Position numbers and translations under genes: made by a program | In this document: positions 34,508 to 50,284 of the stretch, piece after piece | Layout: each line of letters begins with the position of its first letter | How positions within the stretch are numbered: the stretch's first letter is position 1 | Assembly (NCBI RefSeq): GCF_005405285.1 | Contig: NZ_BJDT01000004.1 | Span: 1 to 64,000 of the forward strand | Reading direction: 5' to 3' | Source of the DNA: Weissella sagaensis | GTDB taxonomy: Bacteria > Bacillota > Bacilli > Lactobacillales > Lactobacillaceae | Length of the DNA: 64,000 nt | The notes under the pieces: model-generated | Database searches by the model: none | Told to the model about the DNA's origin: nothing | Seen by the model: the letters and a program-made list of their open reading frames with translations, nothing else

Positions 34508-34544
34508 ATTAAACGTTGTTGAAACAAACATTTTGTAATTTTAT

Positions 34545-34616
34545 GGCTCATTGGTCAAGCGGTTAAGACTCCGGTTTTTCACACCGGCATCCAGGGTTCG
34601 ACTCCCTGATGAGCTA
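34545..34616 (+). tRNA. tRNA-Glu (TTC), copy 1
   Basis: A cloverleaf with anticodon stem CCGGT/ACCGG and loop TTTTCAC (anticodon TTC), and T arm GGTTCGACT. CCA is not encoded. It is identical to the two copies that follow. Confidence 0.95.
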
Positions 34617-34644
34617 TTGGTTTCATCCAAATATTTCATTTTAT

Positions 34645-34716
34645 GGCTCATTGGTCAAGCGGTTAAGACTCCGGTTTTTCACACCGGCATCCAGGGTTCG
34701 ACTCCCTGATGAGCTA
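34645..34716 (+). tRNA. tRNA-Glu (TTC), copy 2
   Basis: Identical in sequence to copy 1 and exactly 100 bp downstream; the spacer is also conserved. Confidence 0.95.
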
Positions 34717-34745
34717 TTGGTTTCATCCAAATATTTTCATTTTAT

Positions 34746-34817
34746 GGCTCATTGGTCAAGCGGTTAAGACTCCGGTTTTTCACACCGGCATCCAGGGTTC
34801 GACTCCCTGATGAGCTA
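34746..34817 (+). tRNA. tRNA-Glu (TTC), copy 3
   Basis: Identical to copies 1 and 2, 101 bp after copy 2, and followed by a terminator. Confidence 0.95.
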
Positions 34818-34825
34818 TATTTACG

Positions 34826-34899: not shown

Positions 34900-34988
34900 G
34901 GAGCTATGGCAGAGTGGTAATGCAGCGGACTCGAAATCCGCCGAACCGGTGTTGAGCCGGCGCACGGGTTCAAATCCCGTTGGCTCCT
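34900..34988 (+). tRNA. tRNA-Ser (CGA), integration target
   Basis: A class II tRNA with a long variable arm. The acceptor stem GGAGCTA pairs with TGGCTCC, the anticodon stem is GCGGA/TCCGC and loop CTCGAAA gives anticodon CGA. Position 73 reads T and CCA is not encoded. The last bases of the gene form the left part of the 32-bp att repeat, so the gene stays functional after integration. Confidence 0.93.
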
Positions 34989-35006
34989 TATTGAGGTTTA
35001 ACAAAC
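34975..35006. other. attL core
   Basis: A 32-bp sequence starting TCCCGTTGGCTCC (tRNA 3' end) and ending TTTAACAAAC, identical to attR at 50253-50284. Similarity fades over the next 14 bp (both end TCAAC). Confidence 0.93.
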
Positions 35007-35276: not shown

Positions 35277-35519
35277 GGGGTAGTTCATAAGCACACGCAC
35301 ATTTATAACAAGTGTAGGTTTGCCTACGGTTGTAAAAGTGGTGGTCACTCACTAGTGACTAGCACGGTGTAGGTTCGCCTACGCCCTACCTACTAAATAC
35401 GGTGGTTCATGCGTTGCGTTTTTGAGTGCACCCTTTTTTGTTACAATGTATTATTATGCTAATGTCTGTTATAACGGCTTTACAGCTCCTTTTATGCTCA
35501 CATTTGTAACAAAATAATG

Positions 35520-35558
35520 TTAGCATTTGTTAGCATGTATCTTAACATTTCTTAACAT
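35520..35558. repeat. YTARCAT repeat array 1 (2 units)
   Basis: Two 17-bp units (TTAGCATTTGTTAGCAT at 35520 and TTAACATTTCTTAACAT at 35542), starts 22 bp apart. Each unit is itself a direct repeat of TTARCAT at 10-bp spacing. The same unit recurs in arrays 2 and 3. Confidence 0.8.
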
Positions 35559-35807
35559 CCAAATGAGACAAATTGCCATGCCAAATAGTGGGTACAGTTG
35601 TTCATTCTGCACTTGTGCGGAAATTACATCTATTTGTTGTCCTAGTTTTTATTTATTTAACACGTTGTTCAAAATATTCCCAAAACTTAACTCATTTCTA
35701 CTCTGCCATGACTAATTACCCCAAATCATACTAAAACGGCGTACAGGCTAATATATGGCTTTTCATTGGGCATGCGAAAAAGTCCGCCAACCTATTAAGC
35801 TATTTCA

Positions 35808-35842
35808 CACGAAAATAAAAAAGCACTGAATTAGATCAGTGC
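35808..35842 (-). terminator. terminator of ArpU-like gene
   Basis: The minus strand has GCACTGA paired with TCAGTGC, then TTTTTTATTTT. The stem overlaps the stop codon. Confidence 0.85.
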
Positions 35843-36264
35843 CAAACTCTAAAATCATAGGTATCTGTAAAGCCATCAGCAAAGTATAAAAATGCTTCAT
35901 TTAGTAATTGCTGGCCTCTTTTTCTGCTATAACCACTCAACTCTTCAATTTCTATCCACTGCTTATACTTCATATATCGATAATCAATAAATTGCCTTAG
36001 CTTTTCAGGTATTGCGTTAATTGCTTCAACTATTTCAGTGAGCCATTGTTTGGCTTGCATATGATTAGTTAACTTTCTCTCTGCCCCATTATCAACGTTT
36101 GTACTTTTTGGTATGTCGTCCCAAACAGGGCTTTTAATATCTATGTATGCTTGGTGTGCTCTTGCTTTGATAATTGGTAATTCTCTATTAAAGAACTCTC
36201 GGACATTCCTAATAGTCGCTTTCTCGTCTAGCACTTTACCCGTCGTATCAAGTATAGATAACAT
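35836..36264 (-). CDS. ArpU-type phage transcriptional regulator
   Basis: A 142-aa protein similar in layout to ArpU family (autolysin regulator) proteins, which sit at the end of early regions of prophages and PICIs of lactic acid bacteria and activate late or packaging genes. Visible parts are a helical N-terminal half and a sigma-like helix-turn-helix near the C terminus (WIEIEELSGYSRKRGQQLLNEA, about residues 107-128). AGGGGGA lies eight bases before the ATG. It is flanked on both sides by YTARCAT arrays. No structural gene follows it. Confidence 0.7.
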   Translation of the reverse strand: MLSILDTTGKVLDEKATIRNVREFFNRELPIIKARAHQAYIDIKSPVWDDIPKSTNVDNGAERKLTNHMQAKQWLTEIVEAINAIPEKLRQFIDYRYMKYKQWIEIEELSGYSRKRGQQLLNEAFLYFADGFTDTYDFRVWH

Positions 36265-36288
36265 TCAATTCATCCCCCTGTATTTAGT

Positions 36289-36373
36289 CCAACATTTTCC
36301 AACATCTGACCTTAGCATTTCTTAGCATTTGTTCTATCATTTGCTAGCATTCTAGGTTAACAAAAGTTAACAT
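36289..36373. repeat. YTARCAT repeat array 2 (4 units)
   Basis: 17-bp units start at 36289, 36312, 36334 and 36357 (spacing 22-23 bp), each made of two ARCAT-type half-sites 10 bp apart. The array begins 25 bp upstream of the ArpU-like start. Confidence 0.8.
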
Positions 36374-36436
36374 CTAACAACTATCTACCGCCCTAGCAAA
36401 GGCGATTATCACGCCTATTTGTGGCATATTTTTTGT

Positions 36437-36507
36437 GTTGCGTTTTAGTGCAACGCGTTGCAACGTTTTTGTTGCGTTGCGTTGCATTTTGTTGCATTCG
36501 TTGCAAC
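36437..36507. repeat. GTTGC/GCAAC cluster
   Basis: Ten copies of GTTGC or its complement lie within 71 bp, including two GTTGCAAC palindromes and three tandem GTTGC. The cluster stands between YTARCAT arrays 2 and 3 and is followed by an AT-rich tract. Confidence 0.75.
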
Positions 36508-36582
36508 GTTTTCTTTTATTAAATCAAAGCTTCATAACCCTTTCAGATAGCCCTTAAACCAGCTTATTACCTTGACATTCAA

Positions 36583-36691
36583 TACCATTGTACCAACATT
36601 TTTAGACTAACATTTACTAACATCTCAGGTTAGCATTTGTTAGCATCTGCTCCAGCATTTTCCAGCGTCATACCTTAACATTTCTTAACAT
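36583..36691. repeat. YTARCAT repeat array 3 (4-5 units)
   Basis: Clear 17-bp units start at 36607, 36630, 36652 and 36675, with a degenerate one at 36583. Spacing is again 22-23 bp. Confidence 0.8.
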
Positions 36692-36734
36692 CCCCTCCAA
36701 TAACCTATATAGCATATACTATTATACTAGCAAA

Positions 36735-36765
36735 TAAAAAAGCACTAACAAATTAATGTTAATGC
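36735..36765 (-). terminator. terminator after membrane-anchored cargo gene
   Basis: The minus strand has AGCATTAAC paired with TGTTAGTGCT, then TTTTTTATTT. Confidence 0.8.
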
Positions 36766-36792
36766 TCAATTATGGTTCTTATAAACTTAATA

Positions 36793-37392
36793 TTAATTGA
36801 TTTTTTCAACACTTCCATCAGTATGGATAATACCAATTGCGCCCATACTTGAGCTTGCATCACGCCCCCAAATGTATAAATCTTTTGACGACGGAGCTGG
36901 TGTAAAAGAAAAGCCCCACGATTTCATTTGAATCATTTTTTGTTCATATGTTAAAGGCGCAGTAACTATATAATCTAAGTTTTTTAGATCTACATCTCGG
37001 TTGCGATTCCGTTCAGCAATACCCGTATTATCCTGTTCACCTTTTTTAATAGTATGACCATATGCATTAACATAATATTGACTATCTTCATCCGTTTCAG
37101 ACTGCGAACTCTTCGTTTCATTGGTTGTATCACTATTACTATTAACATCATTTTCTACACTTGATGAACTAATACTAGAATCTTTACTTTCACTTTTAGA
37201 AGTCATGCCCTTTTTATGCTTTTCTACTGGGGATGTTGAAACTTGCGTGTCTATTTTATCTTGCTTATTCAATTGATTAAAAGTAAACACACCACCAATA
37301 ATGATAACTAGCACAATAATAATTACAATAACCCGATTTTTTAATTTTTTATGGTGTCGTTTCTCTTCTGCCCGTTCTTGTCTTGAAGTCAT
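36793..37392 (-). CDS. membrane-anchored cargo protein of unknown function
   Basis: 199 aa: a charged cytoplasmic start (MTSRQERAEEKRHHKKLKNR), one hydrophobic helix (about residues 21-42), a Ser/Thr/Glu-rich spacer (about 45-105) and a compact C-terminal domain (about 110-199) with aromatic residues (WGFSFTPAPSSKDLYIWGRD). The topology suggests an extracellular C-terminal domain on a flexible stalk. I recognise no family. ATG 37392 has an AAAGGGTGG signal upstream. It carries its own terminator and is separated from the three-gene module, so it is probably a morphon-like cargo gene of the island. Confidence 0.65.
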   Translation of the reverse strand: MTSRQERAEEKRHHKKLKNRVIVIIIVLVIIIGGVFTFNQLNKQDKIDTQVSTSPVEKHKKGMTSKSESKDSSISSSSVENDVNSNSDTTNETKSSQSETDEDSQYYVNAYGHTIKKGEQDNTGIAERNRNRDVDLKNLDYIVTAPLTYEQKMIQMKSWGFSFTPAPSSKDLYIWGRDASSSMGAIGIIHTDGSVEKIN

Positions 37393-37571
37393 AGCCCTAA
37401 CCACCCTTTCACTATCAAGTATATAGATTAGCGACTGTTTTGTGGTTCTAAATTCGTTTTTATCATGTCATTTTTTAATTTCATGCAAAACGTGTAATTC
37501 TCATGGTCCAATTTTCGACTGTGAAACAAGACAGATCGCCAACAACGATTTATCAAATTCAATGACTTGTT

Positions 37572-38540
37572 TTAATTAAGTTCTTCTTTAGCTTCTTGTA
37601 ATTGTTCCATCAAAACATCAATCGTTTCATTTCTATACTTGACAATTGCTTCAATTTTAGGATTTTTAAGATATAGTTCTTTGATCTCTGGAATTAGGTG
37701 TGCATAAATGTATACAGCCTTTGCCAAGTTTCTATCCGAGGTCTTAAAATCTTTATAGTCCTCGGAGTATATTTTAGACACATTAGTCCAATTAGTATCA
37801 ACACTCAATTTATAATTTGATTCAAGAACAAAACTTGAAGGTACAACATTTTGACTACCTATTGTCTCCTTTAAACCTAATTTAACACTTTTTAGCGGAT
37901 GACCTAATGAAATTTCTAGTTTTGTTGCACTCATAGCTGCAGTCGTATCACTAGTTCCACTAACGATACCCTCACTTTGTTCGTTAATGATATCAGTTGT
38001 AAATCCCATCATATCAGTAATAATAAATTGTTCTCTCAATATTCCGTGTTCATTATCAAAGAGATAAAACAGCCACCTAAACAACTCTGGGGTAATATTC
38101 TCTTCTTCAGTATCTACTAAGCCCAATAATTTTCTAACACGGTCTATCATGACAGGCTTTGAAGTATATACCGCGAGCCATAATTGTTTATCCAACTCAA
38201 AAAAAGCTGCTTCTAATTGTTCCACCCCAATTACCTGATCAAAATCCTTAATTTGAGTTTGCTTTTCATCTTTCCAAATATCCTTCTTCCGAAACTGTAA
38301 TGTAAAATCAACCGGAACAAAAGATAGACTAATTTCTTCAGATAATTTAATAAACCTGGTTACTGTGTGCTCGGGAATATTCAGATTATAATGTAAGTTT
38401 TTTGCTGAATCTGGTACAGCATCTAAATCACTTTTAGCATTAAACCTTGTTTCTTTAATCAACTCTTTATTTAAAGATGAAATCTCAGATATCTTTGATT
38501 TTCCATTTATTTTTAATAAATACGTTGTTTTTTGTGTCAT
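37572..38540 (-). CDS. cargo module gene C, unknown 322-aa soluble protein
   Basis: No family recognised. The protein has no signal or membrane segment, a mixed alpha/beta composition, a Ser/Thr-rich middle (SGTSDTTAAMSATK, about residue 197) and a helical, acidic C terminus (MEQLQEAKEELN). Its ATG overlaps the end of gene B by 4 bp, so it is translated from the same message. The size and soluble character would suit a sensor or effector subunit acting with the membrane protein, but this is inference from arrangement only. Confidence 0.6.
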   Translation of the reverse strand: MTQKTTYLLKINGKSKISEISSLNKELIKETRFNAKSDLDAVPDSAKNLHYNLNIPEHTVTRFIKLSEEISLSFVPVDFTLQFRKKDIWKDEKQTQIKDFDQVIGVEQLEAAFFELDKQLWLAVYTSKPVMIDRVRKLLGLVDTEEENITPELFRWLFYLFDNEHGILREQFIITDMMGFTTDIINEQSEGIVSGTSDTTAAMSATKLEISLGHPLKSVKLGLKETIGSQNVVPSSFVLESNYKLSVDTNWTNVSKIYSEDYKDFKTSDRNLAKAVYIYAHLIPEIKELYLKNPKIEAIVKYRNETIDVLMEQLQEAKEELN

Positions 38541-39250
38541 TTATTTCCTCTTTCTAATTGAAAAGAATTTAAATCTACCCGAACAAAAAAATTATGATAA
38601 TTAATAATTTTACATATTAATTTACATAAAATACTGTCTCCACCCTCTATTTTGAATTTTAGTAAAAGACTAGAATATCCGGTCTCTATAACCCGAAGAA
38701 CTACATCAATATCCACTAATTCTATTGGTTCCTTTTCATATTTATGATTACACAAAGGAATAGAAATAACAGATTGGTCAATAGGTACATTATTAAATTC
38801 CATATAGTCTTTTTTATTAGTTACTTGACATCTAACACTTTCTGGATAGAAATAAAGTACTCCTTGTGCACCAATCAATCTTAATAAAAATGAAAAGAAC
38901 CGACCATAATCATACGTAAAATCCATTCGTATTTTAGTTGGTTCATTATTCTCAGCTAAAAAGATTTGTTTTTTTATAGAATTTCCCTGCTTATTTTTTA
39001 TTTTCACCCTAACAGTTAGCTTTTTAATACATATAAGATTAACTAAAATAACTGACAAAGCATATATAATTGTGCTAATTACCAAAATTATGAAATTGGT
39101 AATCAATATCGTCCCTGTTTTGTTAAACTCAAATTTTTTCACAAAAAATGTCATCAATCCAGGCGCACCAAACAATGTAACCAATAAAGTAACAAAGCTC
39201 ATATATATCTTTGGCAACAACGATAGTAAGTTTTTTAAAGCACGTTGCAT
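38537..39250 (-). CDS. cargo module gene B, unknown two-helix membrane protein
   Basis: 237 aa with two N-terminal hydrophobic helices (about residues 13-35 and 45-72), followed by about 160 residues rich in beta-forming positions (KLTVRVKIKNKQGNS onward). A basic stretch directly after helix 2 suggests that the tail faces the cytoplasm. No family recognised. It overlaps gene A by 16 bp and gene C by 4 bp. Composition is clearly more AT-rich than the flanking island genes. Confidence 0.6.
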   Translation of the reverse strand: MQRALKNLLSLLPKIYMSFVTLLVTLFGAPGLMTFFVKKFEFNKTGTILITNFIILVISTIIYALSVILVNLICIKKLTVRVKIKNKQGNSIKKQIFLAENNEPTKIRMDFTYDYGRFFSFLLRLIGAQGVLYFYPESVRCQVTNKKDYMEFNNVPIDQSVISIPLCNHKYEKEPIELVDIDVVLRVIETGYSSLLLKFKIEGGDSILCKLICKIINYHNFFVRVDLNSFQLERGNK

Positions 39251-39780
39251 ATATAAAACCTCATCAAAAAATCTATAAATTTTTTATATTGATGTAATTT
39301 TACAATTTCATCATTTTCTCTAATTTGAAACGTACCGTTTAAATTTAGTTGAAATTGCATCCCAAGATCGTCAGTAATAACCATTTTATCAATTTCATAC
39401 TCTTCTTCTTCAATTCTTGACAGTAAATCTAAACCCGTAATACTGTTATCCTCAAAATCTTCTTTTAAAATCTCATCTTCGGGAGAAAAACGAACATCTG
39501 AAACAGTATAGTTTTCATAACCAAATTTACTTCCCAAATCGCAAAAATTTCGTGTAGATAAGAGCAACAAAAAAATTTGAAACTTATTCAACATTTCATT
39601 AAAGCGCTTCCTGTCTTGCCAAAATAAATTTGGATTGTATTCAATGATTAAAACAGTTTTGGTATCCATCTCATATATCTTATGTTGTAATTTATAATTA
39701 TTTGTAAAATATTTAGTTGCAGCACTCACTTCACTTGATTGCCTTGGATGATTAACTATTAACGGTATATAAACTGCCAT
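39235..39780 (-). CDS. cargo module gene A, unknown 181-aa protein
   Basis: First gene of the three-gene unit, with AAGGGGGA upstream of the ATG. The protein is soluble by composition, with an acidic middle (DEILKEDFEDN, RIEEEEYEIDK; about residues 100-135) and a hydrophobic C-terminal end (FLMRFYICNVL). No family or catalytic motif recognised. The extensive overlaps with gene B point to one functional unit. Confidence 0.6.
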   Translation of the reverse strand: MAVYIPLIVNHPRQSSEVSAATKYFTNNYKLQHKIYEMDTKTVLIIEYNPNLFWQDRKRFNEMLNKFQIFLLLLSTRNFCDLGSKFGYENYTVSDVRFSPEDEILKEDFEDNSITGLDLLSRIEEEEYEIDKMVITDDLGMQFQLNLNGTFQIRENDEIVKLHQYKKFIDFLMRFYICNVL

Positions 39781-39869
39781 TTTTAATCCCCCTTATGTTT
39801 TTGCTTAAACATTTTATATAGCTTATTATATACTACCTACACAGAAATCAGTAGAAGCTTATTCTTAAG

Positions 39870-39946
39870 TTAAAAGGTGTCGCAACTTACGACACCCCTC
39901 TAAAAAACGCCAACAAAGTCAGAAAGTACCTTGTTAGTGTTATTTT
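39870..39946 (-). terminator. two terminators between hicB and the cargo module
   Basis: On the minus strand, AACACTAACAA pairs with TTTGTTGGCGTT (then TTTTTT). A further GGTGTCG/CGACACC stem follows, with TTTT. Together they isolate the cargo module from hicAB. Confidence 0.8.
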
Positions 39947-39963
39947 GCTTAGTCTTGGCTATA

Positions 39964-40362
39964 TTATACGTTTAATGCCGCTTCTAGTGCTTGCGTTGCC
40001 ACTGCTGAAACATTAATGCCATTGTCTTTTGCTAGATCACTAAGATATTTTGGTACTGTAATTGTCTTTCTGATTGTCTTACTGTTAGCTTTTAGCCATG
40101 CTGTCATATCAACCGATACATAAACAATACGTTCATTGTCTTTAACTTCCCAATCGCTTGGGTCTTGTGGCTCTGGGTACTCTGTACCGTCTAACATGGT
40201 GGCGATTGCATCTTCAGCCCAATAGATTGCCTCTTCTGCTGTGTCGCCTTGTGTTACCATTCCTTTGATATTAGGGGATGTGACAACAAAGTAATGGCCG
40301 TCGTCATTAAATTCACTGATAATTACAGGATAGATTAAACGTTTATTATTTCTTATTGCCAT
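39964..40362 (-). CDS. hicB: HicB-type antitoxin
   Basis: 132 aa with the HicB fold at the N terminus (YPVIISEFNDDGHYFVVTSPNIKG, then TAEEAIYWAEDAIA) and a C-terminal ribbon/helix DNA-binding part (TITVPKYLSDLAKDNGINVSAVATQAL). It neutralises HicA and represses the operon. ATG 40362 was preferred; a TTG seven codons upstream is possible. It lies 29 bp downstream of hicA. Confidence 0.9.
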   Translation of the reverse strand: MAIRNNKRLIYPVIISEFNDDGHYFVVTSPNIKGMVTQGDTAEEAIYWAEDAIATMLDGTEYPEPQDPSDWEVKDNERIVYVSVDMTAWLKANSKTIRKTITVPKYLSDLAKDNGINVSAVATQALEAALNV

Positions 40363-40391
40363 AACATTTTGAGAATATGCCAAACAATACT

Positions 40392-40583
40392 TTATTTTAG
40401 CCCTGCTTGCTTACGTATTGCCATTTCTGTGCCTTTCTTTAATTCCTTGGTGTGAAATGGTATTTCTGTTGTGCGTCCGTCTGGGTGTTTGTAACGCCTA
40501 TGTCCGCCTTTACCTTTATCAGGTACTAACTCAAAACCGGCTTTCAATAGCTCTTTTCCCATTTCTTTGGGACGCTTTGGCAT
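40392..40583 (-). CDS. hicA: HicA-type mRNA interferase toxin
   Basis: A 63-aa basic protein with the HicA double-stranded-RNA-binding-like fold and the catalytic histidine in KGGHRRYKHPDGR (about residues 25-37). It precedes hicB, as usual for this family. GAGGAGG precedes the start. Confidence 0.9.
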   Translation of the reverse strand: MPKRPKEMGKELLKAGFELVPDKGKGGHRRYKHPDGRTTEIPFHTKELKKGTEMAIRKQAGLK

Positions 40584-40600
40584 GTTCTCATCCTCCTCTC

Positions 40601-40661
40601 TATACGTACATTATACGTGCAATCACTATAAAAGTAAATACTTTATACGTATAATTATACG
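40601..40661 (-). promoter_or_regulatory. hicAB promoter with ATACG operator repeats
   Basis: The minus strand has TTTACT (40633-40638), a 17-bp spacer and TATAAT (40610-40615). Around it lie ATACGT repeats (40603, 40614, 40645) and a perfect CGTATAATTATACG palindrome (40648-40661), the likely HicB operator. Confidence 0.7.
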
Positions 40662-40701
40662 ATAAAACGCCAACAAGTTATTTTCTAACTTTGCTGACGT
40701 T
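40662..40701 (-). terminator. terminator of the replication-side operon
   Basis: The minus strand has a long stem (AACGTCAGCAAAGTTA with TAACTTGTTGGCGTT, few mismatches), followed by TTTTATC. It separates the small genes from hicAB. Confidence 0.75.
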
Positions 40702-40742
40702 GTTTTATTATTCACTCATCATGATCCGCAATCTAATTGTCT

Positions 40743-40832
40743 TTAAACAATAGGTACCATGCCTAATGTTATACATTGCACACATAAAGTAATCAACACC
40801 CCAAACATAAAAATACCAACTTCACTACTCAT
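40743..40832 (-). CDS. small hydrophobic protein, 29 aa
   Basis: Reads MSSEVGIFMFGVLITLCVQC and ends GMVPIV, a single predicted membrane helix. Its ATG overlaps the stop of the preceding 48-aa ORF by 4 bp and follows a GAGAGGG signal. Unknown function; a real short gene is plausible but unproven. Confidence 0.45.
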   Translation of the reverse strand: MSSEVGIFMFGVLITLCVQCITLGMVPIV

Positions 40833-40975
40833 TCTTTCGCCCTCTCAATATTTTTAAGTGATACTGAAATATTATGTAAAACGCCAACTTTCAGCAATTC
40901 AATTCTAGTTTGTATATCGTTGTTTGGTCGTGATACTAAAGTTAGTAGTTCTTGCATAATAAAATGTTCATTCAT
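40829..40975 (-). CDS. small helical protein, 48 aa
   Basis: Starts MNEHFIMQELLTLVSRPNND and is helical and mildly charged. Its ATG overlaps the end of the coiled-coil gene (stop at 40968-40970), so it would be translated by coupling. Unknown function. Confidence 0.5.
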   Translation of the reverse strand: MNEHFIMQELLTLVSRPNNDIQTRIELLKVGVLHNISVSLKNIERAKE

Positions 40976-41321
40976 TATTCTTACCTCTCCATCCCCTTAT
41001 ACGTTGGCCACCTTGTTTTTCTAACTTATCTAAACGCTTGGCCAACTGTCTATTTTCCTTTTTTAATTGCTCTATTGTTGCCTCTAACTCATTCAACCTA
41101 TCTTCATACTCGTAAACAATTGTCATGTCCTTAACTTCATTTTGTAAGTCTGCTATTGAAGTTAATACGTTCTCGTCCTCTAAATCTGCATAGTATCGAA
41201 CATGATTAACCAACTCTGTTAGAAGCCTGCGTATTTTTGGGTCAACATCAGCCAGCACATCATTAATATTCTTATTCAATTCTTGAATGTGCTTGTTTGT
41301 TAGTTGTGTATTAAATGCCAT
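40968..41321 (-). CDS. coiled-coil protein, 117 aa
   Basis: The C-terminal third (about residues 65-110) is a heptad-like coiled coil (RLNELEATIEQLKKENRQLA). The N-terminal half is helical. AAAGGAG precedes ATG 41321. It lies right after the candidate origin and the helicase gene, so a replication- or island-regulatory accessory role is plausible, but no family was recognised. Confidence 0.65.
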   Translation of the reverse strand: MAFNTQLTNKHIQELNKNINDVLADVDPKIRRLLTELVNHVRYYADLEDENVLTSIADLQNEVKDMTIVYEYEDRLNELEATIEQLKKENRQLAKRLDKLEKQGGQRIRGWRGKNNE

Positions 41322-41417
41322 TGTTGTATCTCCTTTATTTAAAAAGGTAGTTATTCCTACCCTCGTTACTTTTAATAAAAGTCTTATAAACATTGATATA
41401 AAAGCATTTATATTTTT

Positions 41418-41633
41418 TTACTACCTTACTACCCCTTTTTTGAACTCCGCTCGTATATATGTGTATATGTGTATATGTGTTTGTGTATTCTATATATAAC
41501 TATTTATGAGTAACTATTTAAGGTAGTAAAGGTAGTAAAGAATAGATAAACGCTATTACACCAGTGGTTAGCTAAATTTATAAAAAGTAGTTAAATGGTA
41601 GCTTTTTCCTACTTTTACATCATATTTACTACC
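41418..41633. other. candidate SaPI-like replication origin
   Basis: Two tandem TTACTACC copies (41418-41433) and, inverted, two tandem GGTAGTAAA copies (41522-41539) flank about 88 bp of AT-rich, GTGTATAT-repetitive DNA. A further TTTACTACC lies at 41625-41633. Two iteron sets around an AT-rich core beside the rep gene is the published layout of staphylococcal island origins. The helicase gene stops at 41635. Confidence 0.6.
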
Positions 41634-41634
41634 T

Positions 41635-43200
41635 TTATCTATGTTTGTTAACGCCTTTACCCCGTAATCTACTTTTCTTGTTTTCGTCAAAATCATTAAC
41701 AACCTCTTTATCTTTTTCAATTCCTCTCGTTGGGAAGGTTGCTATAATTATCCCTTTACTCAATAGTGCATTCCTAAATTGTTTAAATGAAATAATATCC
41801 ATTTCATCAAAGCCCTGTTCAGTCATAAATGGCTTGAATTGGTCGTACACATACTTAACAGTTGCGCCATTTGTACCCACAATTTCTACAAGATATTCAT
41901 CTATAAATTGGCTAATATAATCATCACTCTTCAACCAGTCGGCAATTCTAGTTTTTGTACTTGGTAATAAGGTCAACTGCTTTCTTGCAATCGCTTGTTT
42001 AGCTAATTTAATTGCATACCCGATATATTCAGGTAACGCCTCTTTTAACTTATCCTTATCAAACTTATTTAAAAATGCTTTACGCTCATCTTCTGCCATG
42101 CTTTCAATTGGTTTAGCGTCTGCGGACAATAATACTAATCGGCGTTGATATTCCTTACTATCTTCAAACACTGGCAAATGGTAATTAACGGATATTAAAA
42201 ATTTAGCTCGTGGCGTATACGTAAATGTTTCTTTTCCCTTAGGGTTAGCAGTAATTGGATCACCCGAAGATATTTTTTTAATAAGCGTCATACCGTCATT
42301 GTTTATCTGTGTATCACTTTCCGTCAAAATATTAGCGTAGGCAGTAGACAACTGATTAACATAACGGTCACTATCTTTACCCGACAATTGTTTAAAAGAT
42401 ATTGAACTACCAAAGTTTCCAAATGATTCTAACAACGTTTTTAACAGCGTACTTTTACCGTTTCCGCCAACACCTTGCATAAACATGATAGCGTTAATAT
42501 TGCTTGCGTCTTTAAAAAACATATACCCAAACCATTCTGACAATGTTTTTTCTTCATCCCCTAACAAATGCCGTGCATATTCAGCAACTAGCCCACCATT
42601 TGGACTATTTAGCGATACATTAACAGGTAACTTAGATGTTAAATAATCATCTTTTTTAAAGGGATGTTGTACTAATGTTTCTAAATCAAGAGTGCCATTA
42701 GAAAAACTAACTAACTCATTTTTATCAAAAATAATATTTTGTGGTTCAAGCATATAAGCATACATATATGAATACAATTTACTTAAATCGCCGTTGCTCA
42801 TCTTGTCATAAATCAACCACTCACTCAATTCAAAAATAACTTCATTTCTAACTGCTTGCGTAACTTGATTTGCTTTTGTATAGCTTTGCCAATACTCCCC
42901 CGTATAATGGTAGCCCAACGGGTTTTTGTCAGTTACAATAACGCTAATTCTTTCCTCAATACATTTTAAAAATTTAGGATAATCAATAATATGATGAATA
43001 CGCTTTTTAAAAACAACGTGTTTTAACCACTTAGGGGCAAAAGTCGATAGCTCATCTAATAACTTTGCCACGTCATCATCATCTAAACGGCTTTCTACTT
43101 CTTTGCGTTTATTCCAGTAAACAATTTCTTTGGGTTGTTCTTTAACCGTCTGTGCTTTTTTCTCAATATCCTTTAACTCTTCATCATTTAAAATACTCAA
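41635..43200 (-). CDS. phage/plasmid primase-helicase, D5/P4 family
   Basis: 521 aa with a D5_N-type N-terminal region (about residues 60-215), a superfamily 3 helicase core with Walker A QGVGGNGKSTLL (about 245), a Walker B-like ILTESDTQ, the SF3 sensor stretch AKFLISVNYHLP, and a C-terminal winged-helix tail (LVEIVGTNGATVKYVYDQFK). It is the expected replication initiator helicase of the island. The TTG at 43200 is well placed behind GAGGTGG; a GTG seven codons upstream is the alternative. It overlaps the primase gene. Confidence 0.85.
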   Translation of the reverse strand: MSILNDEELKDIEKKAQTVKEQPKEIVYWNKRKEVESRLDDDDVAKLLDELSTFAPKWLKHVVFKKRIHHIIDYPKFLKCIEERISVIVTDKNPLGYHYTGEYWQSYTKANQVTQAVRNEVIFELSEWLIYDKMSNGDLSKLYSYMYAYMLEPQNIIFDKNELVSFSNGTLDLETLVQHPFKKDDYLTSKLPVNVSLNSPNGGLVAEYARHLLGDEEKTLSEWFGYMFFKDASNINAIMFMQGVGGNGKSTLLKTLLESFGNFGSSISFKQLSGKDSDRYVNQLSTAYANILTESDTQINNDGMTLIKKISSGDPITANPKGKETFTYTPRAKFLISVNYHLPVFEDSKEYQRRLVLLSADAKPIESMAEDERKAFLNKFDKDKLKEALPEYIGYAIKLAKQAIARKQLTLLPSTKTRIADWLKSDDYISQFIDEYLVEIVGTNGATVKYVYDQFKPFMTEQGFDEMDIISFKQFRNALLSKGIIIATFPTRGIEKDKEVVNDFDENKKSRLRGKGVNKHR

Positions 43201-44102
43201 TACGTCCACCTCTCTGCCCACGATTTAAATTTATTGCCTAACTCTTTATTGTCGATAGGGTCGCTACCCATGTTATTTACAGCTTCTAATACATCCGCTG
43301 TCATGCGATAGTTGCCGTACGTATTTCTTAATGTCCAACCGCCCAAAGCCGTTAGCATGTTATCCCAACCACCAAACATCATGTAGTTACTTTCTGGATC
43401 TAACAGGCAAGCGATAATTTTTCTGTTTGTTTGTGCATATTTGGGGATGTCACTACTCTCATCATCTACATCAATCATTTGTTTTCGGGTGGTTTTTTCC
43501 TGATATTTTTCAGGGTTCGCATTATATGCTTCAATAACTTTATCAACTGGTAAGCCTTGCGCCACATCTTCAATGTTTGGTACATATTGGCTGTTCTGGG
43601 ACGTTTGCACGTATAGCCCTTGTAATTGCTTAAAGCTCTGGTTAATTGCTGTAGTGTCGCCTTTAATGTCGATTGTTTTTGTGAGTACATTTGAAACTTT
43701 TGCATATTCATCAACATTGACCGCTCTATCTAGCGATACGCCAACTCTTAATCTTGCCCCCTGCTTAATGCCGTTGCTAATGGTTGGATAGATAACAAAA
43801 CTTGTGCCAAATGCACGTAATAAGTCGCCCATGCGGTTACCGGTATCGGTATAATTCCCCTCATCATCTACATCAATAAACAAAACCGTGCGATTAATAA
43901 CATCATCTTGCCTAGTCATACCTGATACTTCGCCATAGATAGCGTACGGCGCTGTATCTCTCTTATACTCGGCTAATTGTTCAGCCGTCATATTTAGCGC
44001 CTGTTGTGGCGCTCTGGTAGCGTGTAAAAGGTGGTTAAAGTCATCTGTATTATTTATAGTGGTGTATTGTTTTTGGCGCACACCGTTAGTCAAGTAAATC
44101 AT
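43197..44102 (-). CDS. AEP-like primase of the island replication module
   Basis: 301 aa with an archaeo-eukaryotic primase-like signature: LFIDVDDEG (about residue 72, metal-binding acidic pair), then ISNGIKQGARLRVGVSLD (about 108-125), resembling the second catalytic block. A helical C-terminal part (about 215-301) resembles PriCT-type domains. It is translationally coupled to the helicase gene and to the small gene upstream. ATG 44102 follows GGAG by seven bases. Confidence 0.72.
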   Translation of the reverse strand: MIYLTNGVRQKQYTTINNTDDFNHLLHATRAPQQALNMTAEQLAEYKRDTAPYAIYGEVSGMTRQDDVINRTVLFIDVDDEGNYTDTGNRMGDLLRAFGTSFVIYPTISNGIKQGARLRVGVSLDRAVNVDEYAKVSNVLTKTIDIKGDTTAINQSFKQLQGLYVQTSQNSQYVPNIEDVAQGLPVDKVIEAYNANPEKYQEKTTRKQMIDVDDESSDIPKYAQTNRKIIACLLDPESNYMMFGGWDNMLTALGGWTLRNTYGNYRMTADVLEAVNNMGSDPIDNKELGNKFKSWAERWTY

Positions 44103-44352
44103 CAAACCACTCCTTTTCTAGCCTCCAGTATGCTTGTGCCTGCTCTTCTTTATTCAGTGGATAAATGAGGCGGTCATTAAGCTTTTTTGTTAATGCCATC
44201 GCTCGACTTACATCTTTTGGATATAGCATCAGTGAGTTACAAAAAGAGTAGATGTAATGATCAAGCCGATTTGTATTAAGTGGGTTGTAATAAAGTTCAA
44301 ATACTCCTGCCAATGCCTCGTTTTGTTGCTCTTTGGTTGGTTTAAAGTTCAT
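44086..44352 (-). CDS. small early protein, 88 aa, unknown
   Basis: A helical, Gln/Leu/Tyr-rich protein (KEQQNEALAGVFELYYNPLN) with no recognised motif. It overlaps the primase start by 17 bp and the preceding gene by 11 bp, so it is part of the replication operon. Confidence 0.6.
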   Translation of the reverse strand: MNFKPTKEQQNEALAGVFELYYNPLNTNRLDHYIYSFCNSLMLYPKDVSRAMALTKKLNDRLIYPLNKEEQAQAYWRLEKEWFDDLLD

Positions 44353-44611
44353 GGTTAGTTACCTCAACAAATTCAGGCAATTTATTAATCGCTTTTGTTA
44401 GATCATTCAACAATTTATCAAAGCTAGGGAAAAGGGCCGTAACTATTTCAAGATGAGAAGATAGTTTAGTGTTGTTTAAGTCTATAAGTTCTTGTTCTGT
44501 TATATTGTCTAAATGATCATTAATAACCCATTCCATTTTGCCAACTAGTTCAATTAAATATTTAACTTCTAGTAATTCGATTTCCTTGCGTGGTTGTTCT
44601 TTTTCAGTCAT
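44342..44611 (-). CDS. small early protein, 89 aa, unknown
   Basis: Acidic and helical (MTEKEQPRKEIELLEVKYLI start). It overlaps the next gene by 11 bp. AAAGGACG precedes it. No family recognised. Confidence 0.6.
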   Translation of the reverse strand: MTEKEQPRKEIELLEVKYLIELVGKMEWVINDHLDNITEQELIDLNNTKLSSHLEIVTALFPSFDKLLNDLTKAINKLPEFVEVTNHEL

Positions 44612-44654
44612 AATAAAAACGTCCTTTCAGTGCCGTATAGTGCTGTTAGAGTTC

Positions 44655-44705
44655 ATAAAAAGTCGTGTATTATCTGTTCGTCAAAACTTTTCTAATACAT
44701 GACTT
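44655..44705 (-). terminator. hairpin terminator inside the early operon
   Basis: The minus strand has AAGTCATGTATTA paired with TAATACACGACTT (one mismatch), then TTTTATG. It lies between the winged-helix gene and the replication genes and may make their expression depend on read-through. Confidence 0.65.
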
Positions 44706-44714
44706 CATTAACAG

Positions 44715-44744
44715 CCAGTTACATGTTTTGTAGCTGGTTTTTTT
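44715..44744 (+). terminator. antisense-facing terminator
   Basis: CCAGTTAC pairs with GTAGCTGG, followed by T7 on the plus strand only. It overlaps the 3' end of the minus-strand gene ending at 44719. Confidence 0.6.
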
Positions 44745-45078
44745 GTGTTTCTAGTTTGTCACTAAATTCTGTTTGCCAATTGGCCAAATCGATACCTCTT
44801 AATTTATGTACTCGTTGCATGCTTTCCAATGCATCATTTTCTACGCTGTATGTTGCTGTTTGTAGTTCTGTTTGACTAGAGATAATAAATAAACCGCCCA
44901 TCTTGCCATCTCGAATAGAGCCAACGGGAACGCCTGCTTTTACTAATTGCGAAGATAGTTGAGATACGGTTCTAGTATCTATGTTTAATAGATTGGCCAA
45001 CTCTTTACGAGGCTTAGCATTTTCTTGTCCAACCGATAACAAGTTATATAGTGCGATTGCTTTTGTACTTAATGTCAT
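44719..45078 (-). CDS. winged-helix early protein, 119 aa
   Basis: The N-terminal 60 residues form a helix-turn-helix of the kind that separates replicative from regulatory use (KELANLLNIDTRTVSQLSSQL, about 24-44). The rest is helical. It starts 4 bp inside the preceding gene. Probably a DNA-binding regulator of the island; target unknown. Confidence 0.6.
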   Translation of the reverse strand: MTLSTKAIALYNLLSVGQENAKPRKELANLLNIDTRTVSQLSSQLVKAGVPVGSIRDGKMGGLFIISSQTELQTATYSVENDALESMQRVHKLRGIDLANWQTEFSDKLETQKNQLQNM

Positions 45079-45482
45079 GAGTTCTCCGCCTTTCCTAGTG
45101 CTGTTAATTGTTCATTCATCCGTTGTAAGATACTTAACTTGGTATTGTTAGTTAATTGCTCATCATTGGTAATAACGTCTATCAATGCACAACTAGCTAA
45201 CTGAAAGCCATCCCCAAAGTCAGTAGACTGTTCTGTACTCTTCATGGGGTGCAATACCAACATTGTTTTTTTGGCTTGCTTATATCGTTTAACCATATCA
45301 AACGATAAATCATTTAGTTGATCATGCTTGACCATTAACATAACTGCCTGTACGCCTTGTTTCAAACCTAGTGCGATATATTGACTTGGCAAATGTGTCT
45401 CATCTTCTAAAACGTCATTCATTTCTTGCTTGGCTATATTGCATGCCCTTAACAATTGTTGTTTAAATTCTGTTTCTGTCAT
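45075..45482 (-). CDS. early protein, 135 aa, unknown
   Basis: A helical protein with no recognised motif. ATG 45482 is preferred because GGAG is seven bases upstream; the ATG two codons earlier touches it. Part of the early operon. Confidence 0.6.
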   Translation of the reverse strand: MTETEFKQQLLRACNIAKQEMNDVLEDETHLPSQYIALGLKQGVQAVMLMVKHDQLNDLSFDMVKRYKQAKKTMLVLHPMKSTEQSTDFGDGFQLASCALIDVITNDEQLTNNTKLSILQRMNEQLTALGKAENS

Positions 45483-45499
45483 GTTCATGCTCCTTTTCT

Positions 45500-45760
45500 T
45501 TAAAGTTGCTTCATTGCCTCATCTAATTCATCTCGGTTATAACGTTCTAGCCTTGCTAGTCCATGACTTTCTAAATTGTGTACGGGGATGGCTTCATCAT
45601 CTACTAATCTTTGAAATGCTCGTTTACCTAAATTCACATAAGCTTGTGCTTGTTGTTTGTTCATCCATTGCCGTCCGTTGTCATTGAATTCCAATCGGTC
45701 AGCAATTGACTGTACTGCTCCAACTAATGCGGGATAATCTGTTAAACTATTATTTGTCAT
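45500..45760 (-). CDS. excisionase-like/AlpA-like small DNA-binding protein, 86 aa
   Basis: The central part (WMNKQQAQAYVNLGKRAFQR, about residues 32-51) reads like the winged MerR-type helix of excisionases and AlpA proteins, followed by a short beta/charged tail. It could serve as island excisionase, which is otherwise not evident. Assignment by pattern only. Confidence 0.5.
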   Translation of the reverse strand: MTNNSLTDYPALVGAVQSIADRLEFNDNGRQWMNKQQAQAYVNLGKRAFQRLVDDEAIPVHNLESHGLARLERYNRDELDEAMKQL

Positions 45761-45804
45761 AAAGGTTCGCTCCTTTTTTCTTGAGAATGTTGCTACTAAT
45801 TGTT

Positions 45805-45852
45805 AAACCATTGTTAGTTGATGCCTGCTTAGGTTGCTGACAATGGTTTTTC
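45805..45852 (+). terminator. antisense-facing hairpin with T-run
   Basis: AAACCATTGT pairs with ACAATGGTTT around a 25-nt loop, followed by TTCTTTT on the plus strand. Confidence 0.5.
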
Positions 45853-45959
45853 TTTTGGTTTCGGTGTGGTAGTCCCGATTATTGTTTTTTTGATACTAAC
45901 CAAAAGTCACAATATATTTATCAAACAGTTTAATGACTTGTTCAGGTCGTACCCTAGAT

Positions 45960-46181: not shown

Positions 46182-46742
46182 TTAAAATTCATCAAGTTGC
46201 TCATTAGTTAGTGCTTCTTGTGCATTTGCAACATGGTACATCTCTCTTAGTTTCTTCGGTGTAAAGCCTGTGACAGTTAAATATGCTAATGTGTGGTAAT
46301 TTGAGTAAGCGTATTTATTATCAGGTAAATACTCATGGATCACTTGCCCTAAATCTTTATTAATCTGCCTATTGCGTTCTAACAAAATATTCTTGTTAAT
46401 AATTTCTTGCTGTTGTACCTTTACTTTGTATTTCAATTCTTTAAATGCTTTTGCAATTAATAGATTGAACTTAACTACTTGTGGCGTATTATCCAATAAG
46501 CTAAATAAGAAAGTAACGTGCGTTTCAGTCAAATGATAAATTTTATGAGGTCGTCCACCTTTTGAGCCTGCAATAGGTTTTGACGTTTCAAACGTTAAAA
46601 CCCCTAGTTGTTCAAACTCGTTAAAATGACGTGTAATTAATTCTCTAATTCTTTTACGGCTAACGCCTGAATATTGAGAAACAATATCGCTAGTCGTATA
46701 TGGCTCACTCTTCATATCATGTATAAATACTAAATTCTTCAT
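46182..46742 (-). CDS. Rha-like phage regulatory protein, 186 aa
   Basis: The N-terminal winged-helix part (TSDIVSQYSGVSRKRIREL, about residues 17-35) and KGGRPHKIYHLTETHVTFLF match the layout of Rha/ORF6N-type regulators. A coiled stretch and a small C-terminal domain follow. GGAGG is 11 bases upstream. It is the second Rha-like gene of the island. Confidence 0.65.
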   Translation of the reverse strand: MKNLVFIHDMKSEPYTTSDIVSQYSGVSRKRIRELITRHFNEFEQLGVLTFETSKPIAGSKGGRPHKIYHLTETHVTFLFSLLDNTPQVVKFNLLIAKAFKELKYKVKVQQQEIINKNILLERNRQINKDLGQVIHEYLPDNKYAYSNYHTLAYLTVTGFTPKKLREMYHVANAQEALTNEQLDEF

Positions 46743-46792
46743 GTTATAATTAACCTCCGTTACATGTCGTGTGATCTGTAATTAGATTTCAT

Positions 46793-46823
46793 AGCCTGCC
46801 ATTTAGCCATGGTAGGCTTTTTT
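46793..46823 (+). terminator. antisense-facing terminator
   Basis: AGCCTGCCAT pairs with ATGGTAGGCT, then T6 on the plus strand; on the minus strand an A-run precedes the stem. Confidence 0.7.
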
Positions 46824-47649
46824 ATATGCTCTGTTCCGCCTCTGCGATTAAATCAGGAATGATTTTTGTATTCCCATTTACTTTAGCCAGCTCAATCAAC
46901 TTTAAAATCTTGCTAACATCTTGCTTATAGGCTTTGGTTTCCCGTGGGTCTTGTTTGCCATACAGCGTTTTCCCTTGCTCTTGATCGTAAAATTTAAATA
47001 TTAAACGTCTTTGTCGAGTGTCTCGTTTAAGCTTAGGTAAAATATTTGAAAGTCGTTCTAAAGATATAACGTTGAAATGATTACCAACTTCAGTAAGCTC
47101 TGACACTCTGGCGTGTAAAACACCACCATGCCTACCCCAATTAACATTACTGTTTGATGAATAACCCACTGCCTTTGTAAAATCAGCAAACAAATAATAA
47201 ATGGTGTCTCCATCCCCTTTTAATACTCGAACATTCTGGCCATTAAAATTAAGTGTTCCAATGAGATGTAGTTCTACATCATTTGCAAGTTGCTTCTTTT
47301 CCGGGGCTTTGGCCAATTGCTCATAATATTTAAACGCTTCAATAAATGCCAGCTTTACTAAATCTACTTTAGTTCCTCTAAAGCTAGTAACCAAAAATAT
47401 AAAGCCGTCTCGGTTCATTTGATAAGCTTTATTATTCTTACCGCTTGTATCTTGATAAGTAAATTCAGTGAACATATTTTTTAACTGGGCTGACAATTCA
47501 GCCGAGTGCAATTTGTTATCAACCAACTGCAAAACATTCTTATGTTGTTTATTAAATGCCCTTGCTACAGTCAATGTGTCAGTTACCTCTTCATCATTAA
47601 CCACTGTTACCAGTTTATTTTGTGCTAAAATTGAGTTATTCGTATTAAT
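46822..47649 (-). CDS. Rha family antirepressor-like protein (start uncertain)
   Basis: The N-terminal Rha domain is clear (KLVTVVNDEEVTDTLTVARA, KNNKAYQMNRDGFIFLV). It is followed by a second domain (LFADFTKAVGYSSNSNVNWG) resembling BRO/antirepressor N-domains. No ATG or GTG with a ribosome-binding site exists. The only well-placed signal, AAAGGA, sits before an ATT codon at 47649; the alternative TTG at 47688 lies in a hairpin without Shine-Dalgarno. With the ATT start the product is 275 aa. It probably acts against a phage or island repressor. Confidence 0.65.
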   Translation of the reverse strand: MNTNNSILAQNKLVTVVNDEEVTDTLTVARAFNKQHKNVLQLVDNKLHSAELSAQLKNMFTEFTYQDTSGKNNKAYQMNRDGFIFLVTSFRGTKVDLVKLAFIEAFKYYEQLAKAPEKKQLANDVELHLIGTLNFNGQNVRVLKGDGDTIYYLFADFTKAVGYSSNSNVNWGRHGGVLHARVSELTEVGNHFNVISLERLSNILPKLKRDTRQRRLIFKFYDQEQGKTLYGKQDPRETKAYKQDVSKILKLIELAKVNGNTKIIPDLIAEAEQSI

Positions 47650-47671
47650 CGTGTCCTTTCGATACTTGACT

Positions 47672-47702
47672 GCTCCGCTCTCTGACAAGCGGGGCTTTTT
47701 TT
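47672..47702 (+). terminator. antisense-facing terminator
   Basis: GCTCCGCT pairs with AGCGGGGC, followed by T7 on the plus strand. It separates the Cro-like gene from the Rha gene; on the minus strand no T-run follows. Confidence 0.75.
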
Positions 47703-47707
47703 ATGCC

Positions 47708-47902: not shown

Positions 47903-47928
47903 TATTATCCACCTCCCTTTTATTTTTA

Positions 47929-48046: not shown

Positions 48047-48421
48047 ATGAATAGATTAAAAACAATAAGAAAGAAACTAGGTGCATCACAAATAGACGTT
48101 GCCAATGCTATCGGAATATCACAACAAGCCTATGCACGTTACGAAAACGAACAACGTGAACCAAAATTAGAAACTTGGCAAAAATTAGCTGACTATTTCC
48201 ATGTGTCAATTGGTTATATTCAAGGTTTGTACGACAAAAACGAAACTGAAACTGATAAATATTTAATAGATTCGATACAACAACTTAGCTTTGAAAAAAG
48301 TGATAAAGAAAAAATTACAGATATTATTTTTACTTTAAACGAGAGAATAGAAGATTTGGAAAGTAAACTAAATCAAATGCAGCATCTCGAAGAATATGGA
48401 TATGACAGGAATGATTATTAA
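48047..48421 (+). CDS. CI/Stl-type XRE repressor, 124 aa
   Basis: The N-terminal XRE helix-turn-helix (SQIDVANAIGISQQAYARYENEQ) is followed by a short coiled-coil tail, with no peptidase domain. So it cannot be cleaved by RecA like lambda CI; derepression by a phage protein, as for Stl of SaPIs, would suit it. GAGGTG precedes the ATG. Confidence 0.85.
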   Translation: MNRLKTIRKKLGASQIDVANAIGISQQAYARYENEQREPKLETWQKLADYFHVSIGYIQGLYDKNETETDKYLIDSIQQLSFEKSDKEKITDIIFTLNERIEDLESKLNQMQHLEEYGYDRNDY

Positions 48422-48718: not shown

Positions 48719-48981
48719 TTATTCTTACTGATTGGCCAAACATTTAACTTCTTAGATCACTAATTTTTTCTGTTGTTGTTCGCTGTCTTTCCCCACTCAT
48801 GGGGATGGAAATTTCATAGTAAAATAACATGTCGTAAATCTGTGCTATCAATCTCGCTCGCCATATCTGGTTAGCCAACACACTCGTAGGAGTCACAAGT
48901 TACCGTCCCCTTATACTCAAACAAATAAACCATACATATACGCTCGGTCGTGGTAGTCCCGTATAGAAAGTGTTTAATTTT

Positions 48982-50136
48982 ATGAGTATTACAAAACAAA
49001 AAGATAGAACTTACAATGTGCGTATTTCTTATAGTGATAATGACGGTAAGCGCCGTGAGAAAAATAAAAAAGGCTTTACGTCCCTAACCCTTGCTAAGAA
49101 GTGGGAACGTAAAACCCTTGATGAGATTGATGAAATTTTAGCTAATCACAAACAGCAAAAGAATAGAATGTTGTTACGTGATGTTTATGAGATGTGGTTA
49201 TCCACCTACAAACCCAAAGTAGCCGATACAACATTAAAGAAAACTGATAGTTTCATGCAACTACATGTATTGTGTTCTAAGTGGTTTAAAAATAGTTATG
49301 TAGATGAGATTACACCTACTATTTTACAGCAATTTGTAAATGAATTGAGTGCAGTCATGCACAACTACAAAAAGAATTTAATGCCGTTTAAACAAACACT
49401 TGCACAATGCGTTGTTATGGGGCTAATTGATGAAACACCTTTCAACAGGATCATCATGCCACAACCTAAGCCATCCCCAATATTCACGGATAGACTAGAT
49501 TTTTACACGATTGAACAACTTAACCAGTTCATGAGTAGTGCAAAAGTTTTATACGGTGGTCGTGATGATGTGAAATACAGAATCTATGCTCTATTTAGAG
49601 TTCTGGCTTTCACTGGTATGAGACGTGGTGAATTGTTAGCGTTAAAGTGGACTGATATTGACTATCAAAATAAAACTATCAAAGTTAATAAAAACTTGGT
49701 TGTTGATAATGGTATTATCAATAAAATTCATCCACCTAAGACAAAAGCAGGTAACCGCAATGTTAGGATAGATGATAATACACTAACTATCTTACGTCAT
49801 TGGCAAGCCATTCAATCACGTTTAACGCTTGCTAGCGGTTTACAGTCTACGGGTATCATATTTACTAACAGTACACTCGATAATTACCAATTAGTTAGCA
49901 AATTACGTCCGTGGCTTATTACAATTGCTGAACATGCAAGATTACCACGTATTAAAGTGCATGGTTTCCGCCATACTTACGCTACCTTAGCTATTCAAGC
50001 GGGGATGAATGTTAAACAATTACAGTACCAACTCGGCCATGATGATGTACAAACAACATTATCCGTGTACAGTGGACTGACTGAAACCGATAAAGCAAAA
50101 ACAGCGGATGTATTTACATCACTGGTCAACTTTTAG
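48982..50136 (+). CDS. int: tyrosine integrase of the island
   Basis: 384 aa: N-terminal arm-binding domain (about 1-60, YNVRISYSDNDGKRREKNKKGF), core-binding SAM-like domain (about 65-165) and catalytic domain with R in GMRRGELLALKWTD, K in PKTKAGNRNVR, HGFRHTYATLAIQAG, H/W region LGHDDVQTT and tyrosine in LSVYSGL. It is adjacent to attR, as expected for tRNA-integrating islands. The start is ATG 48982, with a weak AAAG signal; the GTG four codons upstream is the alternative. Confidence 0.95.
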   Translation: MSITKQKDRTYNVRISYSDNDGKRREKNKKGFTSLTLAKKWERKTLDEIDEILANHKQQKNRMLLRDVYEMWLSTYKPKVADTTLKKTDSFMQLHVLCSKWFKNSYVDEITPTILQQFVNELSAVMHNYKKNLMPFKQTLAQCVVMGLIDETPFNRIIMPQPKPSPIFTDRLDFYTIEQLNQFMSSAKVLYGGRDDVKYRIYALFRVLAFTGMRRGELLALKWTDIDYQNKTIKVNKNLVVDNGIINKIHPPKTKAGNRNVRIDDNTLTILRHWQAIQSRLTLASGLQSTGIIFTNSTLDNYQLVSKLRPWLITIAEHARLPRIKVHGFRHTYATLAIQAGMNVKQLQYQLGHDDVQTTLSVYSGLTETDKAKTADVFTSLVNF

Positions 50137-50252: not shown

Positions 50253-50284
50253 TCCCGTTGGCTCCTTATTGAGGTTTAACAAAC
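50253..50284. other. attR core
   Basis: Identical over 32 bp to attL (34975-35006); it carries the last 13 bp of the tRNA-Ser gene. Confidence 0.93.

Follow-up and report, generated by a model that had tools for sequence, protein, structure and literature searches.

Repeat arrays of a Weissella sagaensis phage satellite match sites inside phage terS genes and suggest packaging by several helpers

Three arrays of short direct repeats in a 15.3-kb island of Weissella sagaensis are built of units that match sites lying inside phage terS genes, including those of both prophages of the same genome. Based on these comparisons, we consider it likely that the arrays represent a set of TerS (pac-like) recognition sites belonging to different helper phages, which suggests that the island holds packaging signals letting several kinds of phage carry it. 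Each unit would copy a 10-bp direct repeat that one of these helpers keeps within its own terS.

The island and its phased repeats

The island lies in the window (the whole 64-kb stretch of W. sagaensis DNA analysed) and is bounded by direct repeats of 32 bp (34975 and 50253; Table 1). To judge by its build, it is a phage satellite of the PICI type: an att-flanked element in the range of ~7-20 kb with the integrase at one end, divergent regulators and a primase/helicase replication module. An ArpU-family regulator gene sits at its tRNA end. No virion structural genes were detected among the 20 larger island ORFs compared to Pfam or among ten compared to PHROGs, nor any terminase among the 20 ORFs scanned against Pfam, and terS is absent from the six-frame window as probed with the Terminase_2 TerS profile (E<=0.01), to which other TerS families are invisible. 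The island also holds a HicA/HicB toxin-antitoxin pair (window 39964-40583), and three tandem tRNA-Glu(TTC) genes (34544-34818) are located immediately upstream of the tRNA-Ser attachment site. On visual inspection, the noncoding stretch 35640-35800 looks like the end of another regulator-like gene, one with an open frame in W. bombi (L054 2672-3091), and is probably a gene remnant.

Table 1. Features of the island and its repeat arrays (window coordinates)
Feature	Position	Strand	Remarks
tRNA-Ser(CGA)	34900-34988		attachment site of island
att repeat, left	34975..35006	+	exact 32-bp copy of 50253-50284; begins within 3' end of tRNA-Ser(CGA)
Ten repeats of the reported type, de novo starts	35517, 35538, 36287, 36310, 36334, 36354, 36605, 36628, 36651, 36673
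Array 1, two units: TTAGCATTTGTTAGCAT (35520), TTAACATTTCTTAACAT (35542)	35517..35560	+	best 17-mers 17/17 to terS sites (L237, L228)
ArpU-family regulator gene	35836..36264	-	NCBIfam TIGR01637 64.5 bits, cut-off 43.1; PHROG 248
Array 2, four units (36289, 36312, 36334, 36357)	36287..36373	+	first two 17/17 to terS sites (L232, L212), last two 15/17
Exact 21-nt match to C5 prophage terS (L021 5731)	36309..36329	+	next longest in that 12-kb stretch 14 nt
GTTGCA/TTGCAACG-rich block between arrays 2 and 3	36430..36515	.
Array 3, four units (36607, 36630, 36652, 36675)	36605..36692	+	three 17/17 to terS sites (L217, L237, L228), one 14/17
Exact 20-nt match to C11 prophage terS (L022 5824)	36627..36646	+	then 18 nt, 13 nt elsewhere
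Replication module: D5/DUF5906 helicase-primase and upstream primase-like gene	41635..44105	-
Small protein of replication module	44719..45078	-	PHROG 2113
Two Rha-like regulators	46182..47688	-
Divergent HTH repressor-like gene	48047..48421	+	HTH_3
Tyrosine integrase adjoining right att site	48970..50136	+	PF00589, PF14659
att repeat, right	50253..50284	+	exact 32-bp repeat

The ten units stand in three groups (2 + 4 + 4) around the ArpU-like gene, each consisting of a half-site of 7-8 bp that is repeated directly at 10 bp. In agreement with the first-pass annotation, which had described about ten such units in three arrays, de novo detection, which required an 8-mer to agree at 7/8 positions or more with the sequence 10 bp further along, gave 13 repeats in window 35500-36720, ten of them of the reported kind; the remaining three (36448, 36471, 36480) are part of the GTTGCA-rich block. 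The resulting density of 10.7/kb (13 in 1.22 kb) compares to 0.29, 0.52 and 0.44/kb in window 1-34900, 36720-50250 and 50300-64000, respectively, and a strict 9/9 test of the array region returned three matches at offset 10, whereas all 12 control offsets stayed empty. The annotated unit spacing of ~22-23 bp is likewise recovered, with 26 of the 45 spacings below 60 bp falling at 21-24.5 bp when seven array regions are pooled, as is the flanking of the ArpU-like gene, with array 2 immediately upstream, array 3 also upstream and array 1 downstream.

Where bases vary, the two halves of one unit mostly have them in common, and the units differ from each other (CCAACAT, TTAGCAT, CTAACAT, TTAACAT), as exemplified by CTAACATTTACTAACAT compared to TTAGCATTTGTTAGCAT, a feature that the first-pass annotation had missed. 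Since the halves mostly agree but the units disagree, a single reader protein of fixed sequence is not expected to yield such a pattern. Unit orientation is uniform in the window and mixed in two other array regions, L100 and L101. TTGCA-rich blocks adjoin the arrays of these two loci too; the corresponding block of the window may represent sites for a different TerS family or for a protein of the island.

The repeat inside terS and its relation to the arrays

Elsewhere in the host genome, two of the exact matches to the unit pattern are located inside terS, in the prophages on contigs C5 and C11. In the 12-kb stretches of both co-resident prophages, the longest exact matches to the array region are the terS sites (Table 1), and an 18-nt second match to the C11 prophage connects the unit at 35519 with this same terS site; all further matches are no longer than 12-14 nt. 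Seven of the ten window units match a terS site at 17/17, the other three only at 14-15/17. Across the seven array regions, with repeats found independently of terS, 31 of 61 array repeats hold a 17-mer that is at least 16/17 identical to a terS site from a pool of 49 genes (C5 prophage included), as compared to 0.8% of mock repeats and 1.3% of non-site windows of the same genes.

Viral contigs provide a further comparison. The lead 17-mer falls inside terS at 26 of 49 places, in all 26 in the frame ATG CTA ACA AAT GCT AAC (M-L-T-N-A-N), and some of the TerS proteins that carry it are only ~25-38% alike; 11 of the 49 places are in repeat arrays by the script criterion, and 13 Streptococcus-like satellite contigs contain the 17-mer as judged by eye. 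Two other window units are inside terS at 32/83 and 5/23 places, and a second-class 17-mer, AACCTGACAAAACCTGA, at 85/121 among the matches listed. Exact matches in neither terS nor arrays number 12/49, 48/83 and 15/23 for the three window units, and 29/121 among the matches listed for AACCTGACAAAACCTGA. The opposite strand is used in 2 of the 148 terS placements of these four 17-mers among the matches listed, and a reversed-unit control pattern matched 18 viral contigs, none of them in terS. Both the AACCTG-type and the ATGCTAA-type class are mixed in the arrays of L100 and L101. We note that one terS reading frame, in L315, contains two opposite-orientation copies of AACCTGACAAAACCTGA (3346 and 3486), ~140 bp apart.

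The terS site itself is a 10-bp direct repeat located in the codons after the predicted DNA-reading helix, at [R-M-L-x-N-A-x] or [E-N-L-x-K-P-x]. It was analysed in 50 Lactobacillaceae genes, obtained by applying the Pfam Terminase_2 model to 121 genomes (60 matches, 51 extracted; 9 were partial or weak matches, and the truncated gene of L239 was set aside). The mean octamer identity at offset 10 is 6.36/8 at the motif, compared to 4.01 under synonymous-codon shuffling with the amino acids kept (2000 rounds, s.d. of the mean 0.16, highest 4.54), and 26 genes reach at least 7/8 (13 perfect, 13 at 7/8) versus a null mean of 1.7 and maximum of 6. For 28 representatives below 50% identity the values are 6.14 observed and 3.90 shuffled. 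Among offsets 4-30 at the motif only 10 stands out, all others being <=3.02, and no other place up to 90 nt to the left or right of the motif shows the offset-10 signal. An offset of 10 is no multiple of 3, which puts the half-sites in different frames, and protein similarity therefore cannot explain their identity; chance matching of terS through the protein motif was rejected by the codon shuffling. The unit sequence accordingly lies within a phage terS coding region whose DNA is conserved beyond the protein code, as seen from the synonymous-codon null and from the parallel changes described below.

Among 12 named phages, 80alpha, KC5a, LLC-1 and ES2 display 7-8/8 at the motif octamer; 53801 and phage 92 have 6/8 there and 9/10 in a shifted register, O1205 has 5/8 and 8/10 in a shifted register, A500 6/8, phiARI0462 and an SPP1-like phage 5/8, and phiJB and WC29P3 3/8 at the motif. 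The repeat in terS is common, yet not general.

Three TerS proteins share 89-92% identity with the TerS of the C11 prophage and have different sites with both halves changed. One gene holds TTGATGGtaAATGATGG, and the other two hold ATGTTGGaaAATGTTGG, a sequence that is a window unit as well. Their residue differences concentrate at 117-138 (of 304 residues), with 11/23, 10/30 and 12/33 located there; a second, smaller cluster is found at residues 42-50, away from the site, in two of the three (L158 and L152). An AlphaFold model, weak as a whole (mean pLDDT 61.8, pTM 0.33), places helices at 89-101, 104-112 and 116-126, with block pLDDT values of 75-84, and helix 116-126 would then be the recognition helix of a helix-turn-helix. 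Profile search links the family to solved TerS chains, e.g. 3zqp and 4zc3, the latter described as a DNA-binding-domain chain (PMC4737164). In 12 close TerS pairs, 11 of them distinct as L012/L466 and L159/L151 are the same comparison, 22 of 48 changed half-site positions are parallel in both halves (19/44 once the duplicate pair is dropped), versus 1-5 of 53-66 at other offsets. From the residue clusters at 117-138 together with these parallel changes, the TerS helix and the neighbouring site appear to switch together. As a separate observation, the TerS of L250 and L216 are ~94% alike outside the site and their sites, AAACCTAT and ATTACTAC, belong to different classes, a pattern that resembles the exchange of a short specificity cassette.

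Distribution of the arrays and competing readings

Heterogeneous arrays were identified in six further Lactobacillaceae loci and in 11 of 13 Streptococcus-like satellite contigs that have one unit in common, contigs that are not independent, some being near copies, and whose putative host derives from one primase search and a flank shared with Streptococcus gallolyticus. The first-pass annotation had counted absent or randomly placed repeats in related islands against its proposal; this check did not refute it, as the W. bombi locus retains the array upstream of its ArpU (81% identical) and has gained or kept one additional complete unit relative to the window. The family search detected the phased pattern in 7 of 251 genomes including the window's own, one of which (G188, L098) had no cluster on inspection. 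Of 73 exact matches in contigs of GTDB species, 8 are in terS, 16 of the other 65 (in Clostridia, Psychrobacter, Phyllobacterium, Larkinella and others) are accompanied by two or more nearby repeats under a loose criterion, and 49 of the 73 are, under the same criterion, in neither terS nor arrays; the array-like ones are leads only. No clear array was found in six Javan streptococcal satellites (two obtained via a primase search, four by accession number) with a density test that is insensitive, as it detects only 2-4 repeats in the unit-carrying L117, L130, L133 and L145; in one of the six, L568, 4 repeats in 300 bp are equalled by one control offset. Arrays are thus not universal among satellites.

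Several neighbourhoods deserve mention in their own right. In L110, L117, L130, L145 and similar contigs, the shared unit lies toward the integrase rather than next to the ArpU-like gene. The array-bearing L102, of the same family, contains an ANT(6) aminoglycoside adenylyltransferase and a Ccr-like serine recombinase (below model cut-off) a few kb from its array (2563-7558, 9651-10006). In four Clostridial or Paenibacillaceae loci, 10-bp repeats occur near a sigma-factor-like gene, which is over the sigma-70 superfamily cut-off in L557 and judged by eye in L556, L539 and L562.

Four interpretations of the arrays had been offered at first pass, i.e. a packaging signal, an ArpU operator, a second origin and a partition site. 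The evidence backs the first, and the other three were rejected on unit variety, identity to terS sites and fetched array stretches lacking an ArpU homologue. An operator, at which the units bind the island's ArpU-like regulator to control its own and late genes, would agree with the placement of the arrays on both sides of that gene, with the position kept in W. bombi and with L102, where an ArpU gene directly adjoins the array. However, ArpU is one protein and the units vary, and an ArpU homologue is missing from the fetched stretches of four of the six other Lactobacillaceae array loci (tblastn E<=1e-3, three ArpU queries), such that arrays do not consistently occur with the gene. A homologue is present in 5 of the 13 Streptococcus-like contigs, located at least 8 kb from the unit in L130, L145 and L118. 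Exact units are moreover found inside terS even in the C5 prophage stretch, which has no ArpU homologue, the only two ArpU matches of the genome being elsewhere. We therefore regard an operator as very unlikely. A search for related loci in viral contigs with the ArpU protein yielded none. The ArpU gene may instead belong to the same captured late-control segment as the array, because ArpU is upstream of terS in the C11 prophage; the ArpU-free arrays and the distant ArpU genes of L130, L145 and L118 speak against such a tie. Iterons of a replication origin or partition site are the least probable reading, with hardly any weight in our assessment: phased noncoding repeats in an island that has replication genes would be compatible, but iterons are repeats of one sequence beside a replication gene, and the arrays are ~5 kb from the helicase-primase gene, with heterogeneous units that equal phage terS sites.

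The two remaining alternatives accept the relation to terS. As a decoy, the array would titrate helper TerS and hamper helper packaging without itself being a packaging start, for which there is precedent in the satellite protein Ppi, described to bind phage TerS and lower phage packaging (PMC12597102), and which is compatible with ten units in the island versus one site per phage terS. However, unit variety is less needed against one phage, and an island without recognizable terS requires some packaging signal, making a pure decoy unlikely; the array may serve as a decoy besides packaging. The repeat could also be read by TerL, an HNH endonuclease or a recombinase, as the data demonstrate a conserved DNA site in terS rather than its reader, and in two phages the annotation at the terS match is that of an HNH nuclease. 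Near-identical TerS differ mainly in or beside the predicted helix next to the site, as expected if TerS is the reader, and we consider another reader improbable.

Proposed packaging mechanism and known systems

We propose that the arrays operate as TerS recognition sites in the following manner. Upon helper induction, the island would excise and replicate to form a concatemer. The helper TerS presumably binds whichever units correspond to its own site, then recruits TerL, so that the concatemer is packaged into helper particles, likely starting at the array. Several unlike units would widen the range of packaging phages, which may be the reason for the heterogeneity, and any phage supplying a matching TerS could package a satellite without its own terS. 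Because the array appears to combine sites of several helpers in an island without terS, several phages would be able to package the satellite.

A broader proposal seems to us reasonably probable, namely a packaging code in which Terminase_2 TerS reads a 10-bp repeat in the codons that end its own recognition helix, specificity and pac switch as one cassette, and terS-less satellites keep phased 'key ring' arrays of many phages' codes. The mode of TerS-DNA binding is called unclear and controversial in a review (PMC9611059). The DNA-binding domain of the related SF6 TerS is reported to bind pac DNA in vitro with little sequence specificity (PMC4737164), and the SPP1 pac cleavage sequence, as described in PMC5615212, differs from the repeat. 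A terS repeat that covaries with the adjacent TerS helix amounts to a recognition rule that can be tested directly in a large family of TerS and, if true, the helper range of a satellite would be predictable from sequence.

Both the presence of a helper cos site in satellites and the location of pac within terS have been described (PMC12597102, PMC9611059). Apparently new, as not found in the literature searched, are the heterogeneous array of many phages' sites and the 10-bp terS repeat covarying with the neighbouring TerS helix; a title- and abstract-level search gave no description of heterogeneous TerS-site arrays or of the 10-bp terS repeat, and an earlier report of a part, e.g. for the pac of 80alpha or SaPI1, may exist.

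Among known elements, Lactococcus bIL310 (AF323671) is similar as a 15-kb element with integrase and helicase, and has two 10-bp repeats before orf25, a weak signal equalled by one control offset; unlike the Weissella island, it possesses its own annotated terminase (terS profile E=1.4e-35). The staphylococcal PICIs of the SeCISE48 type, described to encode their own TerS recognizing the island's own pac (PMC12597102), share satellite packaging by headful phages, whereas the Weissella island is without recognizable terS. In PICIs described to carry the helper cos site (PMC12597102), as in cos-type SaPIs (PMC5052747, PMC8569155), the satellite similarly duplicates the packaging site of its helper and is thereby packaged by the phage TerS; here, however, many different short sites are assembled in an array, and they copy a terS-internal repeat rather than cos. 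Finally, the pac site of P22 also lies within the terS gene, and the packaging-initiation site is thus encoded in the terS coding sequence in the same manner, but it is described as one asymmetric 22-bp sequence (PMC9611059), whereas the site detected here is a 10-bp direct repeat that varies between phages with its halves staying alike.
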